A DNA stretch of 16,021 nt from Gammaproteobacteria bacterium. Lineage in GTDB: Bacteria > Pseudomonadota > Gammaproteobacteria > UBA6429 > Thiohalophilaceae. The stretch is taken from the NCBI GenBank assembly GCA_013152045.1, contig JAADGZ010000139.1:1-16021 (forward strand). Reading direction: 5' to 3'. Below, piece by piece: positions 2,255 to 15,446 of this stretch. The notes beneath the pieces were generated by a model. It was not told the DNA's origin. It did not search any database and saw only the letters and a list, made by a program, of their open reading frames with translations. Within the stretch, counting starts at the first letter, position 1; each line of letters opens with the position of its first letter. A program made the position numbers and the translations under genes.

Positions 2255-3583
2255 TTAGTAACTGAGCGTATTGATGCCGCTATGAAAGTAGCGGTTTGTC
2301 ACTATGTGAAGCTGATCTTTGAGCCCACCATCATCACGGCCTGAAAATTCAGAGTACAGCTTGTTGGCGATCAGGCTAAACTTGTCTACTAGTTCAGGAT
2401 CGAAATGAGTTCCCTTCTCCTGTTGAATAATTTGCATGGTTTGTTCAAATGAAAAGGGTTGCTTGTAAGGCCGACGGGATGTCAGGGCATCGAAGACATC
2501 CGCGATGGCAAAAATTCGAGCATTTAATGGAATGGCATCAGCAGCTAGACCTTGAGGATAACCTTGGCCATTATATTTTTCATGATGTGCGCCTACCACA
2601 TCTTCGGCATCCTGCAACCAATCGGAATTATGAATGATATCCAGGCCGTGGTTGACGTGATCTTTCATGGTTGAAAATTCATCTTGATCCAGTTTCCCAG
2701 GTTTGAGAAGGATATTGTCACGGATACCAATTTTGCCGACATCATGCAGAAATGAACCTTTGATAAGTGATTTCATTGCCTTTTTCTCAAGGCCGATTGC
2801 TTCTGCAAGAGCAACGGCATAAATAGTTACGCGGTAATTATGCGCGTCAGTGTCACTATCGCGCTTAGCAATGGTCGCACCTAGCACCTCCAACATTTCA
2901 AGGTTGGCATTGAGTAGGCTGGTGGAAAAGTCAGAAAGTTTTCCTGCCAGGTGAGTAATTACGGGATAGAGCAGCAAGGTGGTTGAAAAGACAATTGTAA
3001 ACACGTAAAAAATAGTTTCCATAATCTGCTTTCTGACCAGTTCAATCGCATAGTCAGAGAGGGCGAATACTGCATGTAGATAGATGGGGGACTGTTTTGC
3101 ACCTGCGATTAGGCGGGTGTTGGTATAGATATAGGGTTGGCCGGCAATATCTATTACAGAATATTCAAGTTTGTCGGTAGTTGGGTAGCTTGCGGGCATG
3201 TTGTTGATGTACTGCTTGACAGTATTTAAAGGGGCATAGTTGTGGTCTTCATAGGCTTCGATATGATGCCCCTGGTTATTATAAATCATGGCATAGACAT
3301 AGCGTCCTTCCCTGATGCGTATGTTTGAACCTGGAGGATAGTTTATGGCTTCAAGCAGAGCCTGTTTTGTTTCAAGCTTGCCTTGTTTCATCAGTTGCCT
3401 AAATTGAGCACGAACCATGCTAATTTTCAGTTGAGAGACTTTGATTACAGTGTCGATGACCATGTCTTTAGAATGATCATAGGCGATGAATGAAACTACA
3501 CCGGCAATGATAAGCGCCGCCAGCGTTAGCCGGCGAATGAGAATATGATAGACAAATTTTTTCAGGGGTCTGTTTTTTTCCAT
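2255..3583 (-). CDS. Membrane-anchored HD-GYP cyclic-di-GMP phosphodiesterase with periplasmic sensor
   Basis: A 442-residue protein expected to hydrolyse cyclic-di-GMP. Membrane segments at about residues 18-36 and 188-210 enclose a periplasmic sensor region of about 150 residues. The cytoplasmic C-terminal part is an HD-GYP domain with its metal and substrate motifs intact: HD at 280-281 in FLHDVGKIG, then KPGKL at 294-298, DHVNHGLDII at 308-317, HHEKYNGQGYP at 333-343 and IADVFDALTSRRPYK at 360-374. There is no receiver domain or HAMP motif that I can recognise. The protein is therefore a direct one-component sensor. A GGGGAT Shine-Dalgarno precedes the ATG. It starts 47 bp after the arsM stop codon and is probably the last gene of the arsR-arsM operon, which would link the signal sensed there to surface or motility behaviour. 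Family is secure; ligand unknown. Confidence 0.93.
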   Translation of the reverse strand: MEKNRPLKKFVYHILIRRLTLAALIIAGVVSFIAYDHSKDMVIDTVIKVSQLKISMVRAQFRQLMKQGKLETKQALLEAINYPPGSNIRIREGRYVYAMIYNNQGHHIEAYEDHNYAPLNTVKQYINNMPASYPTTDKLEYSVIDIAGQPYIYTNTRLIAGAKQSPIYLHAVFALSDYAIELVRKQIMETIFYVFTIVFSTTLLLYPVITHLAGKLSDFSTSLLNANLEMLEVLGATIAKRDSDTDAHNYRVTIYAVALAEAIGLEKKAMKSLIKGSFLHDVGKIGIRDNILLKPGKLDQDEFSTMKDHVNHGLDIIHNSDWLQDAEDVVGAHHEKYNGQGYPQGLAADAIPLNARIFAIADVFDALTSRRPYKQPFSFEQTMQIIQQEKGTHFDPELVDKFSLIANKLYSEFSGRDDGGLKDQLHIVTNRYFHSGINTLSY

Positions 3584-3630: not shown

Positions 3631-4503
3631 TTATGAAGCGGGTTTGAGTGCTTGGATATAGGCTGATAGAACGTAGTCTTCTACGCCTGTATCAGGAGCC
3701 CAGTCACGGATAAATTCACGGGATTCATCTTTGGGGGTTATTTCTATTTGTTCAAAGCCTGCTTGTTCCAGCATGTCGCGAAGATCTTCAATCAGGGAGG
3801 CACCGGCCATGCAGCCGGCATGCAATTTTTTATCGTTACGCATTTCTTCTGGTAATTCGATTGCAGCGACGACATCTGAAATAGCCAGTCGGCCCTGTGG
3901 TTTTAGTATGCGGAAGGCATCACGGAAAACCTGCGCTTTATCAGGAGATAAATTGATAACACAGTTGGAAATAATAACATCGATGCTGTTGTCAGCAACG
4001 GGTAGATGTTCAATTTCACCCAGCCGAAATTCAACATTGCTAAAATCTGCTTTATCGGCATTATTGCGTGCCTTGCTGATCATAGTTGGGGTCATGTCGA
4101 TACCGATAACCAAACCGTTTGCGCCTACTTCGCGAGCGGCGAGAAACACATCAAAACCACCGCCACTGCCAAGATCAACGACCTTATCGCCTGCTTTCAG
4201 ACTGGCAATGGCATGAGGATTCCCACATCCCAGTCCCATATCGGCACCTTCTGGAACACTGCCCATATCGTTTTCACTGTAACCAAGGCGTAGGGAATTG
4301 AGGGTATTGATGTCCAGTTCAGCGGAAACGCCGCAACAGGAGGATTCGACTCCACAGCTTTCACCATTATTACTGGCTTCGGCAACTTGGGCATAACTGT
4401 CGCGAACATGCTTTCGTATATCGTCATTCTGGCTATGCTGACGGTCTTCTGTTTGTTCAGAGGGGGGGGTGCCACAGCAGCTATCGGGTGTTTCATGGCT
4501 CAT
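3631..4503 (-). CDS. arsM: Arsenite S-adenosylmethionine methyltransferase
   Basis: Methylates As(III) with SAM to mono-, di- and trimethyl arsenicals in the cytoplasm, a detoxification step. The protein has 290 residues. Motif I is VVDLGSGGG at 108-116 with the acidic SAM residue in GIDM at 134-137. The three cysteines that define active ArsM are present: Cys93 in GLGCGNP, Cys181 in ISNCVINL and Cys231 in HAGCMAGA. Additional N-terminal cysteine pairs (Cys9-Cys10, Cys56-Cys57, plus Cys50) may bind arsenic. The ATG has an AAGGAAT Shine-Dalgarno. It lies 62 bp after the ArsR-rhodanese gene and 47 bp before the HD-GYP gene, suggesting one arsenic- or sulfur-responsive operon. An uninterrupted run of eight C residues on the coding strand (4462-4469) lies near codons 12-14, upstream of all catalytic residues. 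Confidence 0.95.
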   Translation of the reverse strand: MSHETPDSCCGTPPSEQTEDRQHSQNDDIRKHVRDSYAQVAEASNNGESCGVESSCCGVSAELDINTLNSLRLGYSENDMGSVPEGADMGLGCGNPHAIASLKAGDKVVDLGSGGGFDVFLAAREVGANGLVIGIDMTPTMISKARNNADKADFSNVEFRLGEIEHLPVADNSIDVIISNCVINLSPDKAQVFRDAFRILKPQGRLAISDVVAAIELPEEMRNDKKLHAGCMAGASLIEDLRDMLEQAGFEQIEITPKDESREFIRDWAPDTGVEDYVLSAYIQALKPAS

Positions 4504-4565: not shown

Positions 4566-5225
4566 TTATGTTTCAACCGGCAATCCCGCTTTTTTCCATT
4601 CAGGAAAGCCGTCTTCCAGACGGCGGGCCTTGAGGCCTTTTTCCCGCAGGCGCGCTACCGCATCAAAGGCCAGTACGCAGTGGGGGCCTCGGCAGTAGGC
4701 AACCACTTCCTGATGAGGATCGAGTTTATCAAGATGCTGTTCTAGTTCACTGAGCGGTACATTGACCGCACCGGGCACATGGCCGGCAGCATATTCTTCT
4801 GGTGGCCGTACGTCCAGCACGGTGACCAGCCCCTCGCGCGCACGATCCAGCAGTTCTTGAGCGGGCACGGCCTCCAGGTTGTCCTTCACGGTAAGATAGG
4901 TTTTCACCAGTTGATTTACTTCAGCCAGATGACGCTCGGCCACGCCTCGCACGGCTTCCAACAGACCAATGACATCATCGCCGCTCAGCCGGTAGAAGAC
5001 TTTTAAGCCCTGTTTGCGGGAAATAACCAGCCCGGCTTGGCGTAATTGCTGCAAATGCTGGGAGGTGTTGGCGACACTGAGATTGGAGACTTTGGCCAGC
5101 TGATCGACGCTACGTTCGCTCTGGGCCAAAAACTCTATTAATTCCAGTCGGTTAGCATTGCTTAATGCTTTTCCTATACGAGCAAACTGGATAAATAAAT
5201 CCTGTTTAAAATGTCCGCTTGACAT
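4566..5225 (-). CDS. ArsR/SmtB-family repressor fused to a rhodanese domain
   Basis: A 219-residue two-domain regulator. Residues 10-100 form an ArsR-type winged helix, with SNANRLELIEFL in the second helix, the recognition region SNLSVANTSQHLQQLRQAG at 47-65 and the wing at about 66-80. Residues 118-219 are a rhodanese domain with LDVRPPEEYAAGHVPGA and an active-site loop CRGPHC at 178-183. The helix-turn-helix half has no cysteine, so the classic ELCVCDLC arsenic site of ArsR is absent; sensing may be through the rhodanese cysteines, for example persulfidation (inference). The frame extends upstream to 5327, but I choose ATG 5225 because AGAGGA lies about 10 bases before it, ArsR proteins normally begin here, and the longer form would translate through the palindromic operator. 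It heads the leftward operon and is divergent from the redox operon. Confidence 0.92.
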   Translation of the reverse strand: MSSGHFKQDLFIQFARIGKALSNANRLELIEFLAQSERSVDQLAKVSNLSVANTSQHLQQLRQAGLVISRKQGLKVFYRLSGDDVIGLLEAVRGVAERHLAEVNQLVKTYLTVKDNLEAVPAQELLDRAREGLVTVLDVRPPEEYAAGHVPGAVNVPLSELEQHLDKLDPHQEVVAYCRGPHCVLAFDAVARLREKGLKARRLEDGFPEWKKAGLPVET

Positions 5226-5247
5226 ATCTTGAAAATCCTCTATTCTA

Positions 5248-5271
5248 CTATTCAATTGATCTATTGAATAG
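5248..5271. promoter_or_regulatory. Palindromic operator in the divergent control region
   Basis: Arms CTATTCAAT (5248-5256) and ATTGAATAG (5263-5271) are exact reverse complements separated by 6 bases. The ATTCAAT/ATTGAAT half-sites and their size resemble ArsR/SmtB-family operators. The site lies 23 bases before the regulator start codon and overlaps the proposed -35 of the rightward promoter, so binding of the ArsR-rhodanese protein could control both directions. Assignment to that protein is inference from position. Confidence 0.75.
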
Positions 5272-5285
5272 ATGACCACTATACT
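5256..5285 (+). promoter_or_regulatory. Predicted promoter of the rightward redox operon
   Basis: TTGATC (5256-5261) and TATACT (5280-5285) are 18 bases apart, matching sigma70 consensus at 4/6 and 5/6 positions. Transcription would start near 5292, about 57 bases before the ATG at 5349. The -35 and spacer are covered by the palindrome at 5248-5271. Confidence 0.5.
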
Positions 5286-5348
5286 AATTTTAGCACTCCT
5301 TGTGGGCGGGGCAAATTCCCCCTTCAACTTTTAGAGAGATTATTTACG

Positions 5349-6200
5349 ATGACAGACTTTGTGCTGGCCAATGAAGTGAGTATTCGACTCAGCTTCTTTT
5401 TTGGCATTTTTATTCTGATGGCCGTGTGGGAATGGCGTGCGCCACGGCGGGTCTTGCAGGTCTCGAAACTGCTTCGCTGGAGTAATAATCTGGGACTGGT
5501 TTTCCTTAACAGCTTTATCTTGCGCCTGCTGTTTCCCGCTGCGGCGGTAGGTGTTGCTGCCTTTGCCCATGCGCAGGGCTGGGGGCTGTTTAATTACTAT
5601 GCGATACCGGATTTTGTGGCGATTATCGCAGCTGTCATTATCATGGATTTCATCATCTATCTACAACATGTGATGGTGCATGCTATCCCAGTACTTTGGC
5701 GTTTGCATCGGGTGCATCATGCCGACCTTGACTACGATGTCACCACCGGGGCGCGCTTTCACCCACTTGAGATCATTCTTTCCATGTTGATTAAATTCGC
5801 AACAATTTTGCTATTAGGTCCGCCGGTGGTAGCGGTGATTATTTTTGAAGTCGTACTCAATGCGATGGCTATGTTTAATCACGGCAACGTGGGCTTGCCT
5901 AAAGGCCTGGACAGGCTGTTGCGTTATTTTATTGTTACCCCGGATATGCATCGGGTACATCACTCAGTGGAAGATGATGAAGCAAATAGTAATTTTGGTT
6001 TTAGCCTCAGCTGGTGGGACCGGTTACTTGGAACTTACCGTTCACAGCCGCGAATGGGCCATCAGGCTATGATTATTGGCATCCATAAATTTAGAGAACT
6101 AAAACAAAGTACCTGGATAACAGGAATCTTGAGCATGCCTTTTGTAGGCAAGCTTAGTGGTTACGTGATTAATCGTCGCCAATGGAATGAAAACTCCTAA
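5349..6200 (+). CDS. Fatty acid hydroxylase / sterol desaturase family membrane protein
   Basis: A 283-residue integral membrane protein of the di-iron hydroxylase superfamily, which hydroxylates or desaturates lipid chains using O2. Several hydrophobic segments are visible (about residues 12-27, 48-75, 88-106 and 145-172). The histidine clusters that hold the di-iron centre are present: HVMVH at 107-111, HRVHH at 120-124, FHP at 137-139, NHGN at 177-180 and HRVHH at 201-205. The characteristic NSNFGFSLSWWDRLLGTY follows at 213-230. The actual lipid substrate cannot be told from sequence. AGAGAGA precedes the ATG. It is the first gene of the rightward operon and lies 21 bp before the TVP38-rhodanese gene. 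Its place next to sulfur and electron-transfer genes suggests a membrane lipid change tied to the same stress or growth mode. Confidence 0.9.
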   Translation: MTDFVLANEVSIRLSFFFGIFILMAVWEWRAPRRVLQVSKLLRWSNNLGLVFLNSFILRLLFPAAAVGVAAFAHAQGWGLFNYYAIPDFVAIIAAVIIMDFIIYLQHVMVHAIPVLWRLHRVHHADLDYDVTTGARFHPLEIILSMLIKFATILLLGPPVVAVIIFEVVLNAMAMFNHGNVGLPKGLDRLLRYFIVTPDMHRVHHSVEDDEANSNFGFSLSWWDRLLGTYRSQPRMGHQAMIIGIHKFRELKQSTWITGILSMPFVGKLSGYVINRRQWNENS

Positions 6201-6221
6201 ACCGGCTTAACAGGTCATATT

Positions 6222-7184
6222 ATGAATTCAAAATTATTACGTTTTAGTCTGTTGTTTTTGCTAGTTGCCGGTATTGCCTTGGCAGTCATGTATCGGGATC
6301 AGCTGGATACTGCAGCACTGGAGTCCTGGGTGCAGGGCGCGGGTGCAGCTGGACCGCTGTTATTTATGTTGATTTACATATTGGCTACCGTTTTTTTTGT
6401 ACCTGGGTCGATGTTGACGTTAGCTGGTGGTGCTTTGTTCGGGCCACTGCTGGGCACTTTCTATAATCTTACTGCTGCGACCATCGGCGCGATCATTTCC
6501 TTTCTTGCTGCGCGCTATCTAGCTTCGGACTGGGTGGAGAAAAAAACTGGCGGATGGATGAAACAATTAATAAATGGCGTCGAAAACGAGGGCTGGCGTT
6601 TTATCGCCTTTACTCGCCTGGTGCCCTTATTTCCCTTTAACTTGTTGAATTATGCTCTAGGTCTGACCCGTATAAGTTTCAGTCAGTACATTGTTGCCAG
6701 TTATATATGCATGTTACCCGGCGCGATTGCTTATACCTACCTGGGTTATATCGGTCGTGAAGCGGCAACCGGCGGTGAAGATATTGTCCAGAAAGCCATG
6801 CTAGCGTTAGCGTTGCTGGCAGTAGTCAGTTTTCTGCCACGTTTGATTGGCAAATTGCGCAGCAAACCCATGCTTACGATTGCAGAACTGAAGCAGAAGT
6901 TGGATGCAGGAGAAGATGTGCTGGTGCTGGATGTGCGTACGCCAGAAGATTATGCGGGGGAGCAGGGGCATATTGCCGGTTCCAGGTTGTTGCCGCTGGA
7001 AGAACTGAATGCGCGTATTCATGAGCTGGATGATTATCTGGAAAAAACCATCGTCACTATCTGCCGCACGGATCGCAAATCAGCAAAGGCTGCGCAGATA
7101 TTGACACAAAAAGGTTTTGCCGATGTGCATGTGGCGAAGATGGGGATGACGGACTGGAACAAACAGGGGTATCCGATCAAATAA
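6222..7184 (+). CDS. TVP38/TMEM64 (DedA-like) membrane protein fused to a C-terminal rhodanese domain
   Basis: A 320-residue fusion. Residues 8-210 form a TVP38/TMEM64 (VTT) domain, with FVPGSMLTLAGGALFGPLLG at 59-78 and the family motif FTRLVPLFPFNLLNYALGLT at 130-149, and several membrane helices. Residues 216-320 form a rhodanese domain with LDVRTPEDYA at 236-245, GHIAGS at 249-254 and an active-site Cys281 in CRTDRKSA. The rhodanese would lie on the cytoplasmic side and transfer sulfane sulfur; VTT proteins are associated with lipid scrambling or small-molecule transport, and the role of the fusion is unknown. A weak CAGG lies upstream of the ATG. It is the second rhodanese domain encoded around this control region, which supports a persulfide-based function. 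It is followed by a gap of 103 bp with a hairpin-forming repeat. Confidence 0.9.
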   Translation: MNSKLLRFSLLFLLVAGIALAVMYRDQLDTAALESWVQGAGAAGPLLFMLIYILATVFFVPGSMLTLAGGALFGPLLGTFYNLTAATIGAIISFLAARYLASDWVEKKTGGWMKQLINGVENEGWRFIAFTRLVPLFPFNLLNYALGLTRISFSQYIVASYICMLPGAIAYTYLGYIGREAATGGEDIVQKAMLALALLAVVSFLPRLIGKLRSKPMLTIAELKQKLDAGEDVLVLDVRTPEDYAGEQGHIAGSRLLPLEELNARIHELDDYLEKTIVTICRTDRKSAKAAQILTQKGFADVHVAKMGMTDWNKQGYPIK

Positions 7185-7186
7185 AG

Positions 7187-7216
7187 GTAGGTTGGGCTGA
7201 GGTACGAAGCCCAACA
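7187..7216. repeat. Dispersed hairpin repeat, copy 1
   Basis: Begins with GTAGGTTGGGCTGAG, which occurs again at 10857-10871. Here it folds into a stem of GTTGGGCT (7191-7198) with AGCCCAAC (7208-7215) and a 9-base loop. It sits 3 bases after a stop codon, as REP-like elements usually do. I recall closely similar GTAGGTTGGGYT hairpins as frequent intergenic repeats in gammaproteobacteria. It may attenuate or stabilise the operon transcript. Confidence 0.75.
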
Positions 7217-7287
7217 TCGATTATTGAGTTAAACCAACTTATATATTCTGAGGCTTTTGTGCCTGAATTTTTTAAAAGGAAAAGAGT

Positions 7288-8070
7288 ATGTCGATTACAG
7301 TTATTTTTGCAGGCCTGATTACAGGCATGTTGCTGGGAGTATTTGGCAGTGGTGGTTCTATTATTACCGTGCCCGCACTGCTTTATTTACTTCATATTGA
7401 ACCCAAGTCGGCTATTGCCATGAGTCTTGGGATTGTTTCAGTAACCGCGACCATCACGGCCTTGCAGCACTGGCGCAAGGGTAATGTGAATTTCAAGGTT
7501 ACTGCCATCTTTGGTTTATTTGGCGTTATCGGTTCCTTTGCCGGTGCCAAACTCGGGCTTATCACGCCGGTAGTCATCCAGCTCAGTGCATTTGCGCTGG
7601 TGATGTATGCGGCCGCCTGGCGAATGTTAAAACCGATAGCACAGCACAAATCTGTAGGTGCTGCCTGCACGGAGTGTGCTGATGGTCACTGTAATAATAT
7701 AGATTATCGGCATATCGCCCTGCATGGAGTTGCGGTGGGACTTCTATCCGGAGTAGTTGGTGTTGGCGGTGGATTTCTGATTGTTCCGGCTCTGGTGTTG
7801 CTTTCCGGTCTGCCTATGAAACAGGCAGTAGGGACGTCGTTAAGCATTGTGGCGCTGCAGTCTTTTTCCGGCTTTGCAGGCTATGCCGGAGCAGTGGAGA
7901 TTGATTATTCTCTGATGGCGATATTTACCAGCATAGCCATTACCGGAAGCGTTGTGGGAAGTATGCTGGCCCACCGCTTGCCAGCGGATCTGCTCAAACG
8001 AGGGTTTGGCTTTTTCCTGGTATTGGTGGCCAGTTATATTTTGATTGAACAATTTTTCTTAGCGAGGTAA
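7288..8070 (+). CDS. TauE/SafE-family sulfite or sulfur-anion exporter
   Basis: A 260-residue polytopic inner-membrane protein of the TauE/SafE (formerly DUF81) family, whose characterised members export sulfite or sulfoacetate. The two family repeats are clear: GMLLGVFGSGGSIITVPALL at 13-32 and GLLSGVVGVGGGFLIVPALV at 151-170, each in the N-terminal part of its half. About eight membrane helices are expected. The central loop (residues 115-140) is unusual in carrying a CTEC...C cluster (Cys127, Cys130, Cys135) that could bind metal or carry persulfide. An AAGGAAAAGAG Shine-Dalgarno supports ATG 7288. It sits directly before the DsrE-like gene, so a role exporting a sulfur oxyanion made by this pathway is reasonable, but the substrate is inferred. 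Confidence 0.9.
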   Translation: MSITVIFAGLITGMLLGVFGSGGSIITVPALLYLLHIEPKSAIAMSLGIVSVTATITALQHWRKGNVNFKVTAIFGLFGVIGSFAGAKLGLITPVVIQLSAFALVMYAAAWRMLKPIAQHKSVGAACTECADGHCNNIDYRHIALHGVAVGLLSGVVGVGGGFLIVPALVLLSGLPMKQAVGTSLSIVALQSFSGFAGYAGAVEIDYSLMAIFTSIAITGSVVGSMLAHRLPADLLKRGFGFFLVLVASYILIEQFFLAR

Positions 8071-8074
8071 AACC

Positions 8075-8428
8075 ATGTCCAGTGTCATCATTGTTATTCA
8101 AAACGCACCTTATAAAACCAATAATAAGGCCTGGCATGCGCTGCGTTTTGCCTGTGCAGCATTGACAGAAGATATGGATGTTCGGGTACACCTGCTTGAT
8201 GATGGGGTTGAAGTCGGGCGAAGGAATCAGCAAGCACCAGACGGCATGGTGAATCTTGAGGTTTTTATTTCTGAGTTGATTGACTGTGGTCTTGAGGTGC
8301 GAGCCTGTGGTATGGCGCTGGATGGCTGTGCCATTGATGAAGCGAGCATGATCGAGGGTGTCGAACGAGGCTCTATGAAAGCGCTGTCTTCCTGGGTTAA
8401 AGACAGTGATAAGGTTATGGTTTTCTGA
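8075..8428 (+). CDS. DsrE-family sulfur-relay protein
   Basis: A 117-residue cytoplasmic protein of the DsrE/DsrF/TusD-like fold. Proteins of this family carry persulfide sulfur on a conserved cysteine to or from sulfurtransferases. The N-terminal strand VIIVIQNAPY, the segment VRVHLLDDGVEV at 36-47, and the cysteine region CGLEVRACGMALDGC at 71-85 fit the family; Cys78 is the best candidate for the sulfur-carrying residue. It starts 4 bp after the TauE stop codon, and its Shine-Dalgarno (GAGGT) overlaps that stop, so the two genes are translationally close. No DsrF, DsrH or DsrC partner is visible, so it probably does not act in the reverse dissimilatory sulfite reductase pathway as a full complex. 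Confidence 0.88.
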   Translation: MSSVIIVIQNAPYKTNNKAWHALRFACAALTEDMDVRVHLLDDGVEVGRRNQQAPDGMVNLEVFISELIDCGLEVRACGMALDGCAIDEASMIEGVERGSMKALSSWVKDSDKVMVF

Positions 8429-8507
8429 AACAGATTTATTTCACCGAAACAAATGCAGATTGGGTTAAGCAACAGCTATATGCCCAATTTGCATACTGAA
8501 CGATGGC

Positions 8508-10874
8508 ATGATAATGCAAATAAAAAATACCCAGACCCATAATCCTCGCGTTGTTAAGAGTACGCAACAGGATCTTATGCCGGCGCGCTATAGCCTATCA
8601 GTTCAGTTGTTGAGCATGGCGGCATTTACCCTGGCCTTTGTTGGCTGGCTGAATGAAACCTGGTTAATGTGGTTCGAGAACCCTATCTGGCTCAATCGCT
8701 ATACCGAATATGCAATTATTTTATGCTTCGGACTCTGGCGTATCCTGGCGGAGAAAAATGCTTATACCCGCAAGCGGCTGATGATTCTTGTTTTTATGGT
8801 GACCGTATTCTGGTGGTTGATCCCCTGGCTGTATCCAGTATCTGAACCCTATGTAGGCTTTCTCTGGGGGCAGCCGGTATTTCCTTCCCTGCATGTTCCT
8901 GGAACCATAACGTTCTTTTTAATTTTGGTCGCTGTATTTTTATTTGGTCGCCGTATTATCTGTGGTTTTAACTGCCCCTGTGTCGGTGTGCGTGAAACTG
9001 TGGGCTTTGCTTTTCGTGATCGCACCCTGCGTTCCGATTGGACCTGGAAGTTGCGTCACTCAAAGTGGTTTTTCTTTATTTACTACGTTGGTGTGATGGT
9101 GGTTACTCAGTTCCCACCCAATTCATGGACAGTAAGTTTTGTTGGTGGCTTTTATCTTGTCGTCGCGATGACTTATTTTGGCAGTTTTTTTATTGCCCCC
9201 GTCGTTGGTAATCGTTTTTATTGTCGTTACCTATGCCCCTATGGTGCTACCTTTGGCCTGCTTAACCATGCTGGTTTTTATGGCATCAACATGGATACGG
9301 AAAAATGTATTGATTGTCTGCGTTGTGAACAGGTCTGCGATATGGGTATCCCGGTATGGAAACAGGGTAAGGAAGCAGGGCGTATTACTGCGCTGGAAGA
9401 TTGCATGGGTTGTGCCCGCTGTGTCGTCTCCTGTCCGACCGATGCGCTGGAAGTGCGCGATGTGCGTAATCTATTCCGGCCTGCCCTGAGGCAAAATGCC
9501 AGTCATTTATTAAAAGGTAAAACTACAGATAAAATAGAACGACAAGATAGCGGCTATCAGCCTGTTACCGAGCGCCGTCAGGGCTGGCAAGAGGTGAGTT
9601 TGTCTCCTGTTTTTGCACAGATTCAGAAACAGGCGGCCCGCTGTCTGGACTGTGGTGTGCCGGGGTGCACAAATGCCTGTCCGTTAAAAAATCGTATTCC
9701 TGAATGGCTGGAAGCACTTGCCAGTGGTGATATAAAAACAGCGGCGGAGATCTCACATTCTACCAGTAATTTGCCAGAAGTCTGTGGCCGTCTTTGTCCC
9801 CAGCATCGCCTCTGTGAAGGTAGTTGCACCAAAGCCAGAGAAGAAGATGGTGCCGTTACTATCGGTCTGGCGGAACGCTTTATTACCGATGAGGCTTTCA
9901 GACAGGGCTGGCAACCGGCGCAGCCAGAGAAACAAAAACACAAAGGCAGAAGCATCGCTATTATCGGTGCGGGCCCGGCTGGACTGGCCTGTGCTGATGA
10001 ACTGAACAAGACCGGTTGTGAAGTGACGGTGTTTGATCGGGGAATGTTGGCAGGTGGTTTGATGGCCACCGCAGTGCCGCCTTTTAAGCTGGAGAAATCC
10101 ATCCTCAGACGACGTCAGGGCTTGCTTGAACAGCGGGGGGTGCATTTTCAAATGGGCATCGAAGTGGGTGCAACGCTGATCCAAAAACTGGTGAACAGTT
10201 ATGACGCGGTTTTCCTGGGACTCGGTGCACAGATCTCGCGGACACTGGATATACCCGGCTGTGATCTTGACGGTGTTTATACAGCGCTGGATTTTCTAGC
10301 CGAAGTTAATCGCAATAATGGTGGTGACGCTATGTCAGCTAAACGGGTGCTGGTGCTGGGTGGTGGTGATAGCGCCATGGATTGTGCTCGCTCGGCAATT
10401 CGTCAGGGTGCCACTAGCGTTAGCGTGATCTGTCGCGGGGCAGAGAAGGCGATGCGTGCCTCGCCGAAAGAACAGCAGATGGCAAAGGATGAAGGTGTGC
10501 AGTTTATATTTGAAACTTCACCGCTTGAAATTATGGGCGAGCAGAAGATCACTGCAGTGAGTTTTGATAAGGCTGGTGATATATCGGTGCAAATGATTCT
10601 GGATTGTGATGCGCTGATTTTTGCTATCGGTCAGCTAGCGCAGGCACCATCATGGTTGTCGCAACTGGGTATAAAAACGAATGAGCAAGGTCTTATTCGT
10701 ATCAATGCACAGGGACGGACCTCGCATTCGAAAATCTATGCCGGTGGCGACAACACCCATGGACCCGATCTGATTGTTACCGCTGTTGCCGCTGGACGGT
10801 GTGCGGCTGAAGGTATTCTTGACAGTTTCCGACCCGTGTATAAGCTTAAAAAAATCGTAGGTTGGGCTGAGTAA
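8508..10874 (+). CDS. NapH-type membrane polyferredoxin fused to a GltD-like NAD(P)H:FAD oxidoreductase
   Basis: A 788-residue electron-transfer fusion. Residues 30-250 are membrane-embedded with about five helices and the cysteine motifs of NapH-like proteins, CGFNCPC at 152-158 and CRYLCP at 239-244. Two 4Fe-4S ferredoxin motifs follow: Cys267/270/273/277 and Cys299/302/305/309. Residues 370-460 are the iron-sulfur domain found in glutamate synthase small subunit (Cys379, 382, 387, 391 and Cys426, 430, 436, 440). Residues 480-775 hold the FAD site GAGPAG (487-492), the NAD(P) site GGGDSA (618-623) and YAGGDNTHGPDLIVTAVAAG. No glutamate synthase large subunit is present, so it likely moves electrons between NAD(P)H and the quinone pool or periplasmic cytochromes. 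The start is uncertain: ATG 8508 lacks a Shine-Dalgarno; 8514 and 8577 (AGGA just upstream) are alternatives. The last residues, VGWAE, are encoded by the dispersed repeat. Confidence 0.92.
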   Translation: MIMQIKNTQTHNPRVVKSTQQDLMPARYSLSVQLLSMAAFTLAFVGWLNETWLMWFENPIWLNRYTEYAIILCFGLWRILAEKNAYTRKRLMILVFMVTVFWWLIPWLYPVSEPYVGFLWGQPVFPSLHVPGTITFFLILVAVFLFGRRIICGFNCPCVGVRETVGFAFRDRTLRSDWTWKLRHSKWFFFIYYVGVMVVTQFPPNSWTVSFVGGFYLVVAMTYFGSFFIAPVVGNRFYCRYLCPYGATFGLLNHAGFYGINMDTEKCIDCLRCEQVCDMGIPVWKQGKEAGRITALEDCMGCARCVVSCPTDALEVRDVRNLFRPALRQNASHLLKGKTTDKIERQDSGYQPVTERRQGWQEVSLSPVFAQIQKQAARCLDCGVPGCTNACPLKNRIPEWLEALASGDIKTAAEISHSTSNLPEVCGRLCPQHRLCEGSCTKAREEDGAVTIGLAERFITDEAFRQGWQPAQPEKQKHKGRSIAIIGAGPAGLACADELNKTGCEVTVFDRGMLAGGLMATAVPPFKLEKSILRRRQGLLEQRGVHFQMGIEVGATLIQKLVNSYDAVFLGLGAQISRTLDIPGCDLDGVYTALDFLAEVNRNNGGDAMSAKRVLVLGGGDSAMDCARSAIRQGATSVSVICRGAEKAMRASPKEQQMAKDEGVQFIFETSPLEIMGEQKITAVSFDKAGDISVQMILDCDALIFAIGQLAQAPSWLSQLGIKTNEQGLIRINAQGRTSHSKIYAGGDNTHGPDLIVTAVAAGRCAAEGILDSFRPVYKLKKIVGWAE

Positions 10875-10937
10875 AACGATGCCCATCATTTTATGATGGG
10901 TCGTTAGAATTCATAAACAGCATTCAGCCTAACCTGC
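10857..10937. repeat. Dispersed repeat copy 2, an 81-bp element with imperfect terminal inverted repeats
   Basis: The left end GTAGGTTGGGCTGA (10857-10870) matches copy 1 and is the reverse complement of TCAGCCTAACCTGC (10924-10937) with two mismatches. Inside it is a second hairpin, CCCATCA (10882-10888) with TGATGGG (10894-10900), extended by ACGA/TCGT. The nested arrangement resembles a small non-autonomous element. Its left end overlaps the last five codons and the stop of the NapH-GltD fusion gene. There is no T-run, so I do not call it an intrinsic terminator. Confidence 0.65.
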
Positions 10938-10968
10938 ATGGTTAGCATATTTAGAGTTATACAAAAGT

Positions 10969-11181
10969 ATGATGAAAAAATTAATGGTTATCTTATCAAT
11001 GTTATCTTTGCCTGCGTGGGCGCATCATACCAGGGAACACATGATGCTTTTAGAAGGTAGTGATCAGGTGATTGCCGGGACCCAACAGGGCGCGGAAGGT
11101 GGTGGACTCTGGTTGTTATGGGTGGGGGTTTTCCTGTTTATGTTGTTAGGGTTTATCCGTTGGTGGAAGAGTCGCTCATGA
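10969..11181 (+). CDS. Small membrane protein preceding the octaheme cytochrome
   Basis: A 70-residue protein that I cannot assign to a named family. Residues 1-18 look like a signal peptide with a probable cleavage after AWA, exposing a mature N-terminus HHTREHMM that is rich in histidine and methionine and could bind metal or heme. Residues 46-63 form a single membrane helix followed by a basic RWWKSRS tail, so the protein would be anchored with its short N-terminal part in the periplasm. Two ATG codons (10969, 10972) are in frame. Its stop overlaps the cytochrome ATG by four bases (ATGA), so translation is probably coupled. The context suggests an assembly factor or small subunit for the multiheme complex; this is inference. 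Confidence 0.78.
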   Translation: MMKKLMVILSMLSLPAWAHHTREHMMLLEGSDQVIAGTQQGAEGGGLWLLWVGVFLFMLLGFIRWWKSRS

Positions 11182-12533
11182 AAGCAAAGAGAGTACGTTA
11201 TATCTGGATTCCGCTCATCATCATTATGATTGTAGTGCCGGTCGGTTTTTATTATGTCAAATGGAGCGAGAGTGGTGCGGGAGCAGGTTTATATTCGCGG
11301 TTATGGAAGCCAGAGCCTATTTTTTCTTACTGGGATCCTGATAACTTTTACGAGTCGGTAAAGACCATGACCGGTGTGTTCAAAGGCAAGGAATGTGTTT
11401 CTTGTCATGCCGCAGTAACGCCAGGTATCGTTAATGATTGGCGCAAGAGTCGCCATTCACAGGCGAAGAAAATTGTTTATTGCTCCGATTGTCACGGCCA
11501 TGATCACCAAAACCTGCACTTACCTACGCCCAAAATTTGCGGTGGTTGTCATACCACTCAGCATGCCGATTTTAATGATGAAAAGCGTTTCGGTTTTCCT
11601 TCGCATGCGCTGGCGATGGACCGGGCTCAGGATGCAAAACATTTTGTCGATAAACCCAAGGCAGAAGTGACCGCCTGTTTACAGTGTCATTCGATTGCGA
11701 CTAAGTGTGATTCCTGCCATACCCGACACCAGTTTAGTGTGGCGGAAGCGCGTCGTCCTGAGGCTTGTATTACCTGTCACAGCGGCCCCCCTCATCCGGA
11801 TGATGAAACTTACTTTGCTTCGAAGCATGGACAGATCTATCTGGCTGAAGGAGACAGTTGGGATTGGTCGAAGCCTTTGCGAAAGGGAAATTATAAAGTA
11901 CCGACTTGTGCTTATTGCCATATGAATCGAGGCAAACATCAAGTGGCGGAGAAATCCATTTGGAAGTTTGGTCTAAAGCAAGTTAATCCGCTGACCTCTG
12001 GCAATGAAGTGAAACGGGAAAAATGGGTGAAACTATGCAGCGACTGTCATGAACCTGATTGGGCTAGACAGCAACTGACTAAAATGGATGCAGAAAGAAA
12101 ACGAGCATGGAAAAAACTCTATGCGGCCGAGGGGATATTAAAAGATCTGCGTAGTAAGGGACAGTTATATCCATCCGCCAAACAACGTCCGCCTTATCCA
12201 ACTGATTCTGAAAACTCCTTTTTTCAAATGGAAAGGATAGGTTTTTTTGAGGGACAGGCATCGGCTTTTTATAATGTCTCCCCGATTGAACGGGATTATT
12301 TTAATATGTGGTATTTTGATAATTTAGGTGCCTACAAGGGTGCTGCGCATGGTGCTGCAGAGTTTGTTCGTAAAGGTCATGCGGCTATGGATAGCGCATT
12401 GGAAAATATTCGCCGTAACGCCAATGTTTTGCGCACCCTGAGCGAGGCAGAAAAGAAAGCCGGGATTAAGCCTGAAGCCGATGCCTTCTGGAAACAGGGT
12501 GAATATACGGATTACAATCGGGAGAATAATTAA
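11178..12533 (+). CDS. Membrane-anchored octaheme c-type cytochrome, HAO superfamily
   Basis: A 451-residue periplasmic cytochrome with an N-terminal membrane anchor at about residues 9-26. Eight CXXCH heme sites start at Cys73, 102, 121, 167, 177, 197, 244 and 287. The block CDSCHTRHQFSVAEARRPEA at 177-196, followed by CITCHSGPPHP, is typical of the hydroxylamine oxidoreductase (HAO) superfamily, which includes oxidases and nitrite or hydroxylamine reductases. In that order the fourth site (CLQCH) would be the catalytic heme. Whether a tyrosine cross-link exists, which separates oxidases from reductases, cannot be judged; Tyr378 and Tyr386 lie in the relevant C-terminal helical region. I choose ATG 11178 because it overlaps the upstream stop as ATGA; a longer frame from 11118 would duplicate the upstream coding region. 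Tetrathionate, sulfite, nitrite and hydroxylamine are all possible substrates. Confidence 0.92.
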   Translation: MKAKRVRYIWIPLIIIMIVVPVGFYYVKWSESGAGAGLYSRLWKPEPIFSYWDPDNFYESVKTMTGVFKGKECVSCHAAVTPGIVNDWRKSRHSQAKKIVYCSDCHGHDHQNLHLPTPKICGGCHTTQHADFNDEKRFGFPSHALAMDRAQDAKHFVDKPKAEVTACLQCHSIATKCDSCHTRHQFSVAEARRPEACITCHSGPPHPDDETYFASKHGQIYLAEGDSWDWSKPLRKGNYKVPTCAYCHMNRGKHQVAEKSIWKFGLKQVNPLTSGNEVKREKWVKLCSDCHEPDWARQQLTKMDAERKRAWKKLYAAEGILKDLRSKGQLYPSAKQRPPYPTDSENSFFQMERIGFFEGQASAFYNVSPIERDYFNMWYFDNLGAYKGAAHGAAEFVRKGHAAMDSALENIRRNANVLRTLSEAEKKAGIKPEADAFWKQGEYTDYNRENN

Positions 12534-13472
12534 ATGAATAGCTCCTCTCCTGATGGCGTTAAATCAAGCGCAGATTACGTTAAGGTACAGAGAAATGGAG
12601 CTGTAATTTTTGTCTGTACTGTATTGGCCTGGTATTTGTTTTCAGGGGCCGCTTTTTCTGCCGATAAAAAAACCTTTCCGGAAGGAAAATTCAATAACGA
12701 TCAGTGTGTTCAGTGCCATGAAAAAATAAATGCAAGTTTAGTGGCTGAGTGGCGTGTGAGCGCCCATGCTAAAGATGAACCGGTAGCAAACTGTGTTGCC
12801 TGTCATGGTGACTCGCATAGTGGCGCTGCGGTAAAGGCGCGGCAGGATGAAACCTGTATTGCCTGTCATGGTGGCCAGAAAACCCCGGTGGTTCATAGTT
12901 ACGCTAATTCCAAGCATGGATTGATATTAAAACTTGAAAAAAAGAAATGGGATTGGACGCAACCTCTGGCGCAGGCCAATTATCGCACTCCCGGCTGTGC
13001 TTATTGCCATATGCATGCTGCTGGACATAATGTTTCAGCAATGGTCCGCAATCAAGATCTGCTACAGGAAAATAAGCAAGAAATAAACGCTATCAAGGAT
13101 GCTAGACGCCAAGTCTGCCAGGACTGTCATGCCCCGCGTTATCTTAGTCGCTTGTTTGACAATGGTGAAAAAATGCTGGAGATTGCTCGCATGAAGGTCA
13201 GGGAGGCGAGAAACTTGCTGTTACAGGCGCGCAAGCAGTATACCAGCGAGGAACTTAAATCTGCTGAAAAACGTTACCAGGAGATGCAATCCGTGCACCT
13301 TAAAAATGTTTATCTGGGGGTTGCGCACCAGTCACCAGATTATCAATGGTGGTATGGCCAACCGGCTCTGGACGGGGATTTGCTGCGGATCAAAGGCGAC
13401 ATCAATGAACTGGAGCGAATAAAGAATGTTAATGTCATGCAGAAAACACAGTGTGTGCAGACAAGCAAATAA
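12534..13472 (+). CDS. Pentaheme c-type cytochrome, shortened relative of the upstream octaheme protein
   Basis: A 312-residue exported cytochrome. A hydrophobic segment at residues 22-42 ending in FSA is either a signal peptide or an anchor. CXXCH sites start at Cys58, 87, 108, 155 and 195. Spacing between sites 1-2 (29 residues) and 3-4 (47) equals that between hemes 1-2 and 6-7 of the octaheme protein, and SKHG, WDW and CAYCHM recur in the same places. Hemes 3-5, including the presumed catalytic one, are therefore missing and about 75 residues are absent, so an electron-transfer role is likely (inference). Residues 203-260 are helical and rich in charged residues, as in the HAO family C-terminal helices. 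Its ATG directly follows the octaheme stop codon, with GGGAG upstream, so the two are co-expressed. Confidence 0.9.
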   Translation: MNSSSPDGVKSSADYVKVQRNGAVIFVCTVLAWYLFSGAAFSADKKTFPEGKFNNDQCVQCHEKINASLVAEWRVSAHAKDEPVANCVACHGDSHSGAAVKARQDETCIACHGGQKTPVVHSYANSKHGLILKLEKKKWDWTQPLAQANYRTPGCAYCHMHAAGHNVSAMVRNQDLLQENKQEINAIKDARRQVCQDCHAPRYLSRLFDNGEKMLEIARMKVREARNLLLQARKQYTSEELKSAEKRYQEMQSVHLKNVYLGVAHQSPDYQWWYGQPALDGDLLRIKGDINELERIKNVNVMQKTQCVQTSK

Positions 13473-13487
13473 TGTTCTCAAGAACAT
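13472..13487. promoter_or_regulatory. 7+7 inverted repeat between pentaheme and methyltransferase genes
   Basis: ATGTTCT (13472-13478) and AGAACAT (13481-13487) are exact reverse complements 2 bases apart, beginning at the last base of the pentaheme stop codon. A TATAAAAT sequence lies 14 bases downstream (13501-13508), so the repeat could be an operator near a secondary promoter, or a short hairpin. No good -35 is visible. Confidence 0.4.
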
Positions 13488-13555
13488 GGATGGCTCTCTG
13501 TATAAAATATTTTCTGTTAACGAAGGTTTAAAACGTCGGGTAAGGAGAACGATGG

Positions 13556-14221
13556 GTGGATATCGATACTTATGAAGCCTGGTATCACACTCCACGGGGG
13601 CACTGGATCGGGGAGGAAGAATTTTCCCTGTTAATGCGACTGTTGCCAGTGCAGTTAAATACCGGAATTCATCGGCGCCTACTTGATATCGGCTGTGGCA
13701 GTGGTTATTTTTCGCGCCATTTTGCCGCCTCAGGGTTGCAGACAATCGGTCTTGATTCTAATGCGGCGGCACTCAAATATGCCCGAGAACAAGATTCAAA
13801 AACGCTTTATATACAAGGCACAGCGGAAGCACTGCCCTTTGAAAGTGATAGTTTTGACTATTGTTCGGCGATTACCAGCTTGTGTTTTGTGGCGCAACCG
13901 GAAAAGGCGTTACTGGAAATGTGGCGCCTGGCAAAGAGGGGCGTACTGCTGGGTTTACTGAACAGGCACAGCCTGCTTTATCGGCAGAAACAGGGGCAGG
14001 GTGCCTATCGAGGTGCGCGTTGGGACACACTGGCGGATGTCAGAAAATGGATTGACGTGCTTTCCCCCCAGCCGCTTGCATTCAAATCAGCAACAGCGAT
14101 ATTTCTGCCAAGTGCAGGGGTGGGAGCGCGAATACTGGAACGACTATTACCCGCGTCGTTTCCCTGTGGCAGTTTTCTTGCCGTCTATATCGAAAAAAAA
14201 TCTCCTGGCTCAGAGTTCTGA
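13556..14221 (+). CDS. Class I SAM-dependent methyltransferase
   Basis: A 221-residue soluble methyltransferase. Motif I is LLDIGCGSG at 42-50, followed by GLDSN at 65-69 with the acidic SAM residue and by the motif GTAEALPFESDSFDYCSAI at 88-106, as in the Methyltransf_11/UbiE-like group. The N-terminal EAWYHTPRGHWIGEEE is common in small bacterial members whose substrates are not known. Translation most likely starts at GTG 13556, because AAGGAG lies 8 bases upstream; the nearby ATG at 13552 is in another frame with an early stop. It is 83 bp after the pentaheme gene on the same strand, so it may belong to the operon or have its own promoter. It is not similar to arsM in the cysteines needed for arsenic. 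Substrate unknown. Confidence 0.88.
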   Translation: MDIDTYEAWYHTPRGHWIGEEEFSLLMRLLPVQLNTGIHRRLLDIGCGSGYFSRHFAASGLQTIGLDSNAAALKYAREQDSKTLYIQGTAEALPFESDSFDYCSAITSLCFVAQPEKALLEMWRLAKRGVLLGLLNRHSLLYRQKQGQGAYRGARWDTLADVRKWIDVLSPQPLAFKSATAIFLPSAGVGARILERLLPASFPCGSFLAVYIEKKSPGSEF

Positions 14222-14570: not shown

Positions 14571-15446
14571 ATGTCTTTATTCAGAAATTTACTAATCACT
14601 ATTTTGTTTAGCATATCTGCAACTTCTTATGCGACTATATATTTTAAATATGATGCGGAAGCTTATCCATGTGATGGAAGTGATTTACCAAACCCTCCAT
14701 TCTGGACATTTAACTCGGCTTATCGAGGTCATACATCATGTGGTAAATCTCCACAAGGAAATAAGTACATCGAATTTACAACTGTAGCCGGCCAGCCACA
14801 TCACTTTACAGAAATTCATAATACTCAGAATCTTCCAATAAGCAATGTAATGGGAAAAACATTTTACTTAGCTTGGTATTTTAACTTTTCAAGAATTAAC
14901 GGAAAGGATATTTGGCATGAAACAGGGGCAAGTGGTGATAAAGGTCTTGAAATCGTCGGCTCAGGAATAAGGTGGGTACTAGGTCGTGGACAATGGGGAA
15001 ATATGCTGAACAAAGATCACCATTACACAATATTTGCGGGTAATCCTTCATACCACCTTAATCGTAAACTTGAAATAAATGATATTTACGTACAGAATCA
15101 AAGTGGTTATTATTCAGCAAATACAATGCAATTACCTTATGATCAATGGCATTCAGCCGTCGTCGCTCTTAAAATAGCATCGGATAATACGGGTTCATTT
15201 ACTGCTTATATTAATGGGGTAAAGATTATTGAATATACAAATATTAAAACAGCCGCTAATGACAATCCAACAATTACAGATATAGCTTTAGGTGGAACAA
15301 TTGCTCAGGGTAACGGTGCCCCTGATGCTCCAGCACATAATAGGAGATTTGATGCCTTGTTACTAACTGATAGTTGGCAAGATATTATCGATGGAGGTTA
15401 TCTGAAAACAACACCTAAAGCACCAATCCAATCTAAGCCACAATAA
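14571..15446 (+). CDS. Exported protein with a predicted jelly-roll (lyase- or lectin-like) fold
   Basis: A 291-residue secreted protein. Residues 1-21 are a signal peptide ending in SYA. The mature part has only two cysteines, Cys34 and Cys57, which probably form a disulfide. The pattern of alternating strands, with FYLAWYFNFSR at 98-108, LPYDQWHSAVVALK at 188-201, GSFTAYINGVKIIEYTN at 208-224 and a C-terminal RRFDALLLTDSW, resembles concanavalin A-like domains of polysaccharide lyases (heparin lyase-like) and LamG-type lectins. I cannot identify catalytic residues with confidence, so activity is not assigned. Codon use is strongly AT-rich compared with the redox operon, which suggests separate acquisition. 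It lacks a clear Shine-Dalgarno and stands alone behind a long palindrome. Confidence 0.82.
   Translation: MSLFRNLLITILFSISATSYATIYFKYDAEAYPCDGSDLPNPPFWTFNSAYRGHTSCGKSPQGNKYIEFTTVAGQPHHFTEIHNTQNLPISNVMGKTFYLAWYFNFSRINGKDIWHETGASGDKGLEIVGSGIRWVLGRGQWGNMLNKDHHYTIFAGNPSYHLNRKLEINDIYVQNQSGYYSANTMQLPYDQWHSAVVALKIASDNTGSFTAYINGVKIIEYTNIKTAANDNPTITDIALGGTIAQGNGAPDAPAHNRRFDALLLTDSWQDIIDGGYLKTTPKAPIQSKPQ

Follow-up and report, generated by a model that had tools for sequence, protein, structure and literature searches.

Enzymes of the hydroxylamine oxidoreductase (HAO) family are known for nitrogen chemistry. Here we describe a gene cluster that joins an octaheme cytochrome c of this family to sulfur-handling proteins. 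It lies in a 16,021-nucleotide stretch, called the window throughout, of contig JAADGZ010000139.1 from a gammaproteobacterium of the Thiohalophilaceae (assembly GCA_013152045.1). Our tentative preference is to read the cluster as one conserved regulon of sulfur oxidizers that encodes a periplasmic reductase for an oxidized sulfur compound or a sulfur-bound metalloid. Such a reductase most likely works where sulfur and arsenic chemistry meet and is fed from NAD(P)H or quinol. The observations that carry this reading are the gene identities and their order, a conserved operator-like dyad, the loss of oxidative-type residues from the octaheme, the linkage to arsenic genes and the co-occurrence with dsrA.

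Two of the closest described systems resemble the electron input of the cluster. The NapGH quinol dehydrogenase shares the NapH-like part with Cx3CP and ferredoxin motifs, whereas the window has no NapG, fuses a GltD-type NAD(P)H domain to NapH and offers HAO-type cytochromes as partners. AegA and YgfT likewise fuse ferredoxin clusters to a GltD domain and give partial matches, but the protein of the window scores under their cut-offs and adds a membrane NapH part. Others resemble the octaheme; the papers on them, and those cited further below, are each drawn on in part. In the reverse-HURM scheme of Nautilia (HaoA with NapC/CycB; PMC3701875) the reductive HAO is proposed to be fed by a quinol-type input, whereas the window genes include no NapC-type tetraheme and have NapH-GltD and a small anchor protein instead. 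BOGUAY_0691, the orange octaheme of Beggiatoaceae (PMC6449678), is also an HAO-related octaheme of a sulfur oxidizer; it is described as soluble, and we liken it by description, not by sequence. The symbiont of Lamellibrachia barhami is among the carriers of the cluster (locus L069), and passages of PMC7540712 about it name only an octaheme tetrathionate reductase.

An initial annotation, made from the letters of this DNA alone, knew of no described pathway with this gene set. We found none in the open-access full-text literature, which was judged mostly by title and start of abstract and leaves most subscription papers outside. The kinds of parts are already known; new is the combination of octaheme subfamily, electron input, control site and arsenic linkage. 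The range of the fold would grow if a conserved HAO subfamily has an altered active site, draws on a NapH/NAD(P)H input of its own and works in a sulfur/arsenic setting. The regulon can be approached directly through the conserved dyad, and the carriers include animal symbionts and genera with cultured members (Thiobacillus, Thiohalobacter), making the idea of a single system experimentally accessible.

The octaheme and its active site

The octaheme gene (11178–12533, plus strand) encodes a protein with eight CxxCH motifs and a predicted hydrophobic anchor at the N-terminus. It belongs to the HAO family, scoring 149.9 bits against PF13447 (cut-off 21.9). The nearest solved relatives are kustc1061 HOX (4n4j), hydrazine dehydrogenase (HDH; 6hif), HAOr (6h5l) and HAO, and the alignment with kustc1061 is near full length (E 6.7e-76). 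Residues were counted in 62 distinct members of the octaheme family, from the window and 61 other loci. All 62 carry the eight CxxCH motifs. The cross-link tyrosine, which we take to be Tyr467 of N. europaea HAO, is absent from its aligned place in 62/62; in L076 and L089 a tyrosine stands elsewhere in the stretch, just after HG. Counted along the printed alignment, the tyrosine column falls at about Val396 of the window octaheme. It is mostly valine (49/62), with a histidine four residues later in 59/62. The aspartate of the Asp-His pair is replaced by proline in every member, in the window octaheme by Pro204, and the histidine is retained in every member. A planctomycete outgroup (L103) retains both the aspartate and the cross-link tyrosine.

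With the cross-link tyrosine absent and the catalytic Asp-His pair lost, the octaheme is not an oxidative HAO, HOX or HDH. Nor is it an octaheme nitrite reductase of the ONR/TvNiR kind, in which the catalytic heme is bound by CxxCK: this motif occurs in 0/62 members, and no chain of that name is among the PDB matches of the octaheme. Kustc1061 HOX, HDH and HAOr share with it the eight CxxCH motifs, the near full-length alignment and the histidine of the pair; the combination of N-terminal anchor, missing cross-link tyrosine, proline for aspartate and sulfur gene context sets it apart from them. According to a 2025 phylogeny (PMC12758564), reductive HAOs lack the cross-link tyrosine and have histidine at its site, and reductive family members lacking the tyrosine are also described in PMC3701875. 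The octaheme is like HAOr-type proteins in having no cross-link tyrosine, and it appears to be of the reductive type, within a reductive-looking subfamily; what we say of HAOr draws on the PDB alignment and PMC12758564, or on general knowledge. In that phylogeny the HOX/HDH subclade groups with a few species, a magnetococcal one among them, in agreement with the Magnetococcales loci that we found. The AlphaFold prediction for the octaheme had a mean pLDDT of 55 and was set aside.

The main rival explanation, which we hold to be unlikely, starts from the same features. It proposes a reductive HAO that turns nitrite or NO into hydroxylamine or ammonium in the periplasm, with NapH-GltD replacing NapC and the sulfur genes serving regulation or protection only. 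The octaheme lacks the tyrosine as HAOr-type nitrite reductases do; nitrite reduction has been proposed for an HAO-type protein of Nautilia (PMC3701875), and nitrite is reduced by the orange octaheme of Beggiatoaceae in its native form (PMC6449678). However, the aspartate common to HAOr, HOX, HDH and HAO is the very residue that is proline here, sulfane-sulfur domains are found in the repressor, the VTT protein and DsrE, and a second HAO-family gene of the window genome could serve nitrogen.

That second multiheme gene lies at G000:C290 (L109:149–1684, plus strand). Beside it is a further multiheme protein that has a hydrophobic stretch near the end of the fetched sequence.

Electron input, small peptide and pentaheme

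Upstream of the octaheme, a single gene (8508–10874, plus strand) encodes a NapH-like membrane polyferredoxin fused to a GltD-like Fe-S/FAD/NAD(P)H domain. The protein matches TIGR02163 and TIGR01318, both under the curated cut-offs. Two Cx3CP motifs and two four-cysteine ferredoxin motifs are present in the NapH-like part, and the Fe-S, FAD and NAD(P)H motifs in the GltD domain. NapH proteins carry their ferredoxin clusters at the inner face of the membrane. Given these clusters and the NAD(P)H motifs of the GltD domain, electrons would most likely flow outward, from NAD(P)H or quinol to the periplasmic hemes, which is the sense expected of a reductase. A search of the window proteins with Pfam and NCBIfam profiles found no NapG partner among them. 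The GltD half is missing in 5/52 loci in which NapH precedes the octaheme (L068, L078 and L091–L093), and the NAD(P)H input therefore seems to be an addition to a basic NapH module.

A 70-amino-acid membrane peptide is encoded between the fusion and the octaheme (10969–11181, plus strand). It has a signal-peptide-like start, the sequence HHT and one hydrophobic transmembrane helix ending GFIRWW (C-terminus LLGFIRWW), and it matches no Pfam or NCBIfam family. We surveyed what fills this slot between NapH(-GltD) and octaheme in 60 rows, in which the window stands twice (WIN and L108). A mono- or diheme cytochrome occupies it in 32/60, a peptide in 14, and in another 14 the filter recognized nothing. 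The filter is rough: three of the 14 peptide rows (L068, L092 and L094) are unlike the family, and several of the empty rows hold the small peptide by tblastn. Most of the slot cytochromes end in a transmembrane helix with RWW or similar. Because LLGFIRWW is an ending of this type, the peptide looks like a heme-less counterpart of a membrane cytochrome c anchor, a resemblance at the ends that does not prove descent. In one metagenome protein (P0229) the small peptide and the octaheme appear as a single chain, peptide first, in keeping with a physical partnership.

The pentaheme gene (12534–13472, plus strand) encodes a cytochrome c with five CxxCH motifs that also matches PF13447. It aligns with the HAO fold at hemes 1, 2 (or 5), 6, 7 and 8, and the segment of catalytic heme 4 is missing. 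The two multiheme cytochromes that the initial annotation had paired are both present, and by this alignment the pentaheme is an HAO derivative that lacks the catalytic heme and probably serves as an electron-transfer partner. Some Thiobacillus open reading frames (ORFs) of the pentaheme type have only three motifs.

Conservation, control site and gene context

To follow the cluster across genomes we relied on an alignment of 29 pentaheme sequences, which led to 76 loci in public genome contigs; setting aside the planctomycete outgroup leaves 75. By record title the carriers are Gammaproteobacteria (including Thiogranum, Thiohalobacter, Thiodiazotropha and tubeworm symbionts), Thiobacillus, Magnetococcales, and metagenome-assembled genomes labelled Rhodospirillaceae and Nitrospinota. 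An octaheme gene lies within 1 kb upstream of the pentaheme gene in 65/70 loci with at least 400 bases upstream; 64 of these pairs are directly adjacent, and in L093 a VTT gene stands in between. The loci without it are L057, L091, L104, L105 and L106, and in L091 the octaheme is farther upstream, with a VTT gene intervening. Within 3 kb upstream of the octaheme, NapH-GltD (47 loci) or NapH alone (5) is present in 52 of the 53 cases with 2.6 kb of upstream sequence. The single miss, L086, is due to the counting rule, which skipped a fusion match that runs into a truncated octaheme match. The co-occurrence of fusion, octaheme and pentaheme, on which the single-system idea of the initial annotation depended, is therefore borne out. 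Because the order recurs in dozens of genomes, it is not due to chance.

We also surveyed 40 genomes from the order of the window organism, independently of the pentaheme. The octaheme occurs in 7/40 genomes and a full-length NapH-GltD fusion in 5/40, all five of them octaheme-bearing; the remaining matches are only of GltD length. Of the two octaheme genomes without a full-length fusion, G025 has it in broken pieces (L009), and in G003 the fetched stretch stops just past the peptide (L005). With 7/40 genomes the cluster is patchy and therefore accessory. Mirror-tree correlations (r 0.45–0.89) do not correct for shared ancestry, and we draw no conclusion from them.

The members upstream of the fusion are less uniform. 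Among the 44 loci whose octaheme has 6 kb or more of upstream sequence we found the ArsR-rhodanese regulator in 38, the hydroxylase in 30, the VTT-rhodanese protein in 30, DsrE in 18 (two subtypes pooled) and TauE in 6. The methyltransferase of the window groups with ORFs from 8 other loci. We therefore rejected TauE and the terminal methyltransferase as core members on frequency. The gene set first proposed for the locus stands as a conserved and probably co-regulated system, with these two genes only optional.

The regulator gene (4566–5225, minus strand) encodes an ArsR-type repressor fused to a rhodanese domain (HTH_5, PF01022; Rhodanese, PF00581), 219 amino acids from the ATG at 5225; comparison with relatives favors this start over the TTG at 5327. 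Ahead of it lies the operator-like dyad ATTCAATTGATCTATTGAAT (ATTCAA-N8-TTGAAT; 5250–5269, assigned to no strand). The exact dyad is found in 25/34 regions between regulator and first forward gene (window included), and with at most one mismatch in 31/34; single-base shuffles of these regions gave 0.0 and 0.1 regions, respectively. The 75 loci (1068 kb) contain 28 exact matches, compared to none in 74 control stretches (1370 kb). Four of the 28 fall outside the defined intergenic regions (L060, L067, L074 and L091), by their coordinates ahead of cluster genes. In the window the dyad overlaps the -35-like TTGATC (5256–5261) of a weak sigma-70-like site ending at 5285; the promoter scan overall was not clearly above chance (18 found versus 14.7 expected, standard deviation 4.1).

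The rhodanese motif CRG-x2-C is present in 36/36 regulator sequences (window included). All cysteines of the window regulator lie in the rhodanese loop, with none ahead of the motif, and the same lack of a preceding cysteine holds for 22/36. SqrR, SoxR and BigR rely on two cysteines of the ArsR domain (PMC10451225). These sulfane-sulfur repressors share the ArsR fold and the sulfur context with the window protein, which differs in its fused rhodanese and its lack of an ArsR-domain cysteine. Without that cysteine pair, the ArsR-rhodanese protein would be a different sensor design.

Besides sulfur, the strongest gene-context signal is arsenic, which the initial annotation did not mention. At least one arsenic seed matched beside 26/75 loci, compared to 1/74 control stretches (0/35 dsrA stretches, 1/39 others); the ten seeds were drawn from these loci and the window, so close relatives are favored, and the controls were taken from 40 genomes within this set, with the 39 non-dsrA stretches hand-picked from long contigs. 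In matched genomes the counts are 14/40 cluster loci and 0/35 control stretches. The flanking genes above curated cut-offs are ArsS, TIGR04282, TIGR04283, ArsC, ACR3, ArsJ and an ArsJ-linked GAPDH, together with a Pfam ArsP_1 permease. Of the 284 nearest flanking ORFs, a subset of 136 has ArsS and arsenite methyltransferase at the top of its NCBIfam list, with five members each, and methyltransferases at the top of its Pfam list (11). The modules vary by lineage: ArsM, which closely follows the pentaheme in Thiobacillus-type loci (for example L096–L098); ArsS with two glycosyltransferases (TIGR04282/TIGR04283); ArsJ-GAPDH-ArsP; and ArsC-ACR3. In the window an ArsM gene (3631–4503, minus strand; NCBIfam PRK11873, 367.5 bits, cut-off 263) adjoins the cluster downstream of the regulator, outside the part that the initial annotation covered. 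As different modules adjoin the same cluster in different lineages, these data suggest a repeated association with arsenic, beyond descent alone.

The same linkage could point to a dedicated arsenic system, in which periplasmic reduction of thioarsenate or arsenate supplies arsenite for methylation, arsenosugar synthesis or efflux. The 26 loci and the unrelated modules across lineages speak for it, but 49/75 loci have no arsenic seed match (some contigs are short), ArsS is distributed independently of the octaheme, and MerA-type oxidoreductases and other ArsR-type regulators also occur near some loci. We regard this rival as improbable. As a phyletic marker of the cluster, ArsS showed no association in the order (5/7 genomes with the octaheme, 23/33 without).

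At the genome level, most carriers bear dsrA, often with a periplasmic nitrate reductase. dsrA is present in 35/40 carrier genomes versus 40/114 genomes of the class (Fisher p 8e-9) and napA in 29/40 versus 18/114 (Fisher p 1e-10); in both tests the carriers span more than the class and the genomes are not independent. The enrichment of napA agrees with the nitrite explanation. Yet narG is found in only 9/40 carriers (counted in carriers only), napA was not found in the window genome, which is 67% complete, and the first 25 of the 244 NCBIfam families matched by 136 flanking ORFs include no nitrogen-cycle family, a weak point given that the list stops there and contains overlapping models. The enrichment of dsrA, with the rhodanese, DsrE and TauE content, would also suit activation of sulfur globules or polysulfide, in which stored periplasmic sulfur is reduced for import to the reverse Dsr pathway. 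The cluster is present in 7/40 genomes of the order, whereas dsrA is above the cut-off in 29/40, so it is no general route of this kind, and we consider this rival very unlikely.

Proposed mechanism and remaining genes

In the mechanism that we propose for the sulfur-metalloid reductase, the ArsR-rhodanese repressor would sit on the dyad at 5250–5269 and come off once sulfane sulfur or a thio-metalloid has reacted with its rhodanese cysteine. The cytoplasmic GltD part would accept electrons from NAD(P)H, and the NapH part would bring them into the membrane, perhaps from quinol too. By homology, a membrane-anchored cytochrome c (here only a heme-less anchor), the pentaheme and the octaheme may relay them to the open heme 4 of the octaheme. 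There, in the least certain step, an oxidized sulfur compound or a sulfur-bound metalloid such as thioarsenate would be reduced. Rhodanese, DsrE and, where present, TauE could take up the freed sulfur, and the neighboring ArsM, ArsJ/ArsP or Acr3 could process the freed arsenic. The initial annotation had the locus couple sulfane sulfur to electron flow; persulfide-type proteins are indeed joined to a membrane Fe-S/flavin protein and periplasmic multihemes, and the direction of flow and the substrate are our deduction. A bolder version, which we think doubtful, is a respiratory-type detoxification: the HAO subfamily would split sulfur-metalloid compounds (for example thioarsenates) reductively in the periplasm with NAD(P)H-derived electrons under rhodanese-fused ArsR control, passing arsenite to methylation or efflux and sulfur to rhodanese and DsrE carriers.

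Several observations weigh against a sulfur-metalloid reductase. Its substrate, regulation and electron direction are inferred. The site of the cross-link tyrosine is mostly valine, whereas reductive HAOs are reported to have histidine there (PMC12758564), and the two ArsR-domain cysteines of SqrR/SoxR-type sensors were sought in the window regulator and are not there. The arsenic signal is limited by the 49 loci that lack a seed match and by the independence of ArsS and octaheme in the order; the 26 arsenic-positive loci are not independent, as several of them are closely related (five tubeworm symbionts, several Thiobacillus), and a common metal-resistance island is a possible cause of the proximity. 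Occurrence in the order is patchy, and dsrA above the cut-off does not track the cluster there (5/7 genomes with it, 24/33 without). The napA enrichment leaves room for nitrite, and we found no role in the mechanism for the fatty-acid hydroxylase.

That putative fatty-acid hydroxylase family membrane protein (5349–6200; PF04116, 5.7e-30) is the first gene of the plus-strand run. It is followed by the VTT-domain membrane protein with a C-terminal rhodanese (6222–7184; PF09335, PF00581), the TauE/SafE transporter (7288–8070; PF01925, 4.1e-49) and the DsrE-like protein (8075–8428; PF02635), and the run closes with an S-adenosylmethionine methyltransferase (13556–14221, plus strand) that scores under the DVU_1556 family cut-off. 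Reading of the sequence with Pfam and NCBIfam profiles confirmed every gene that had been named, and the short junctions claimed for the run are real. TauE and DsrE are 4 bases apart, the peptide and octaheme genes overlap at ATGA (the octaheme ATG is at 11178, not 11118, by comparison with relatives), and no base separates the octaheme stop, ending at 12533, from the pentaheme ATG at 12534. Wider gaps separate VTT and TauE (103 bases), DsrE and the fusion (79), the fusion and the peptide (94), and the pentaheme and the methyltransferase (83). A terminator scan found no plus-strand terminator in the intergenic gaps of the run; a hairpin at 10882–10900 has a terminator score on the minus strand only.

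Two other loci show further genes within or after the cluster. L048 has a cysteine desulfurase-like aminotransferase class V ORF between TauE and the fusion (6304–7524), and in L042 the pentaheme is followed by an additional ORF with five CxxCH motifs and a MerA/dihydrolipoyl-dehydrogenase-like gene (10810–12138 and 12138–13547). In the window, the 11-base string GGTTGGGCTGA occurs twice, at 7190 just past the VTT-rhodanese gene and at 10860 at the end of the NapH-GltD gene. The remaining neighbors are a phospholipase-D-family gene (2–1396), an HD-domain gene (2255–3583) and a polysaccharide-lyase-like gene (14571–15446).

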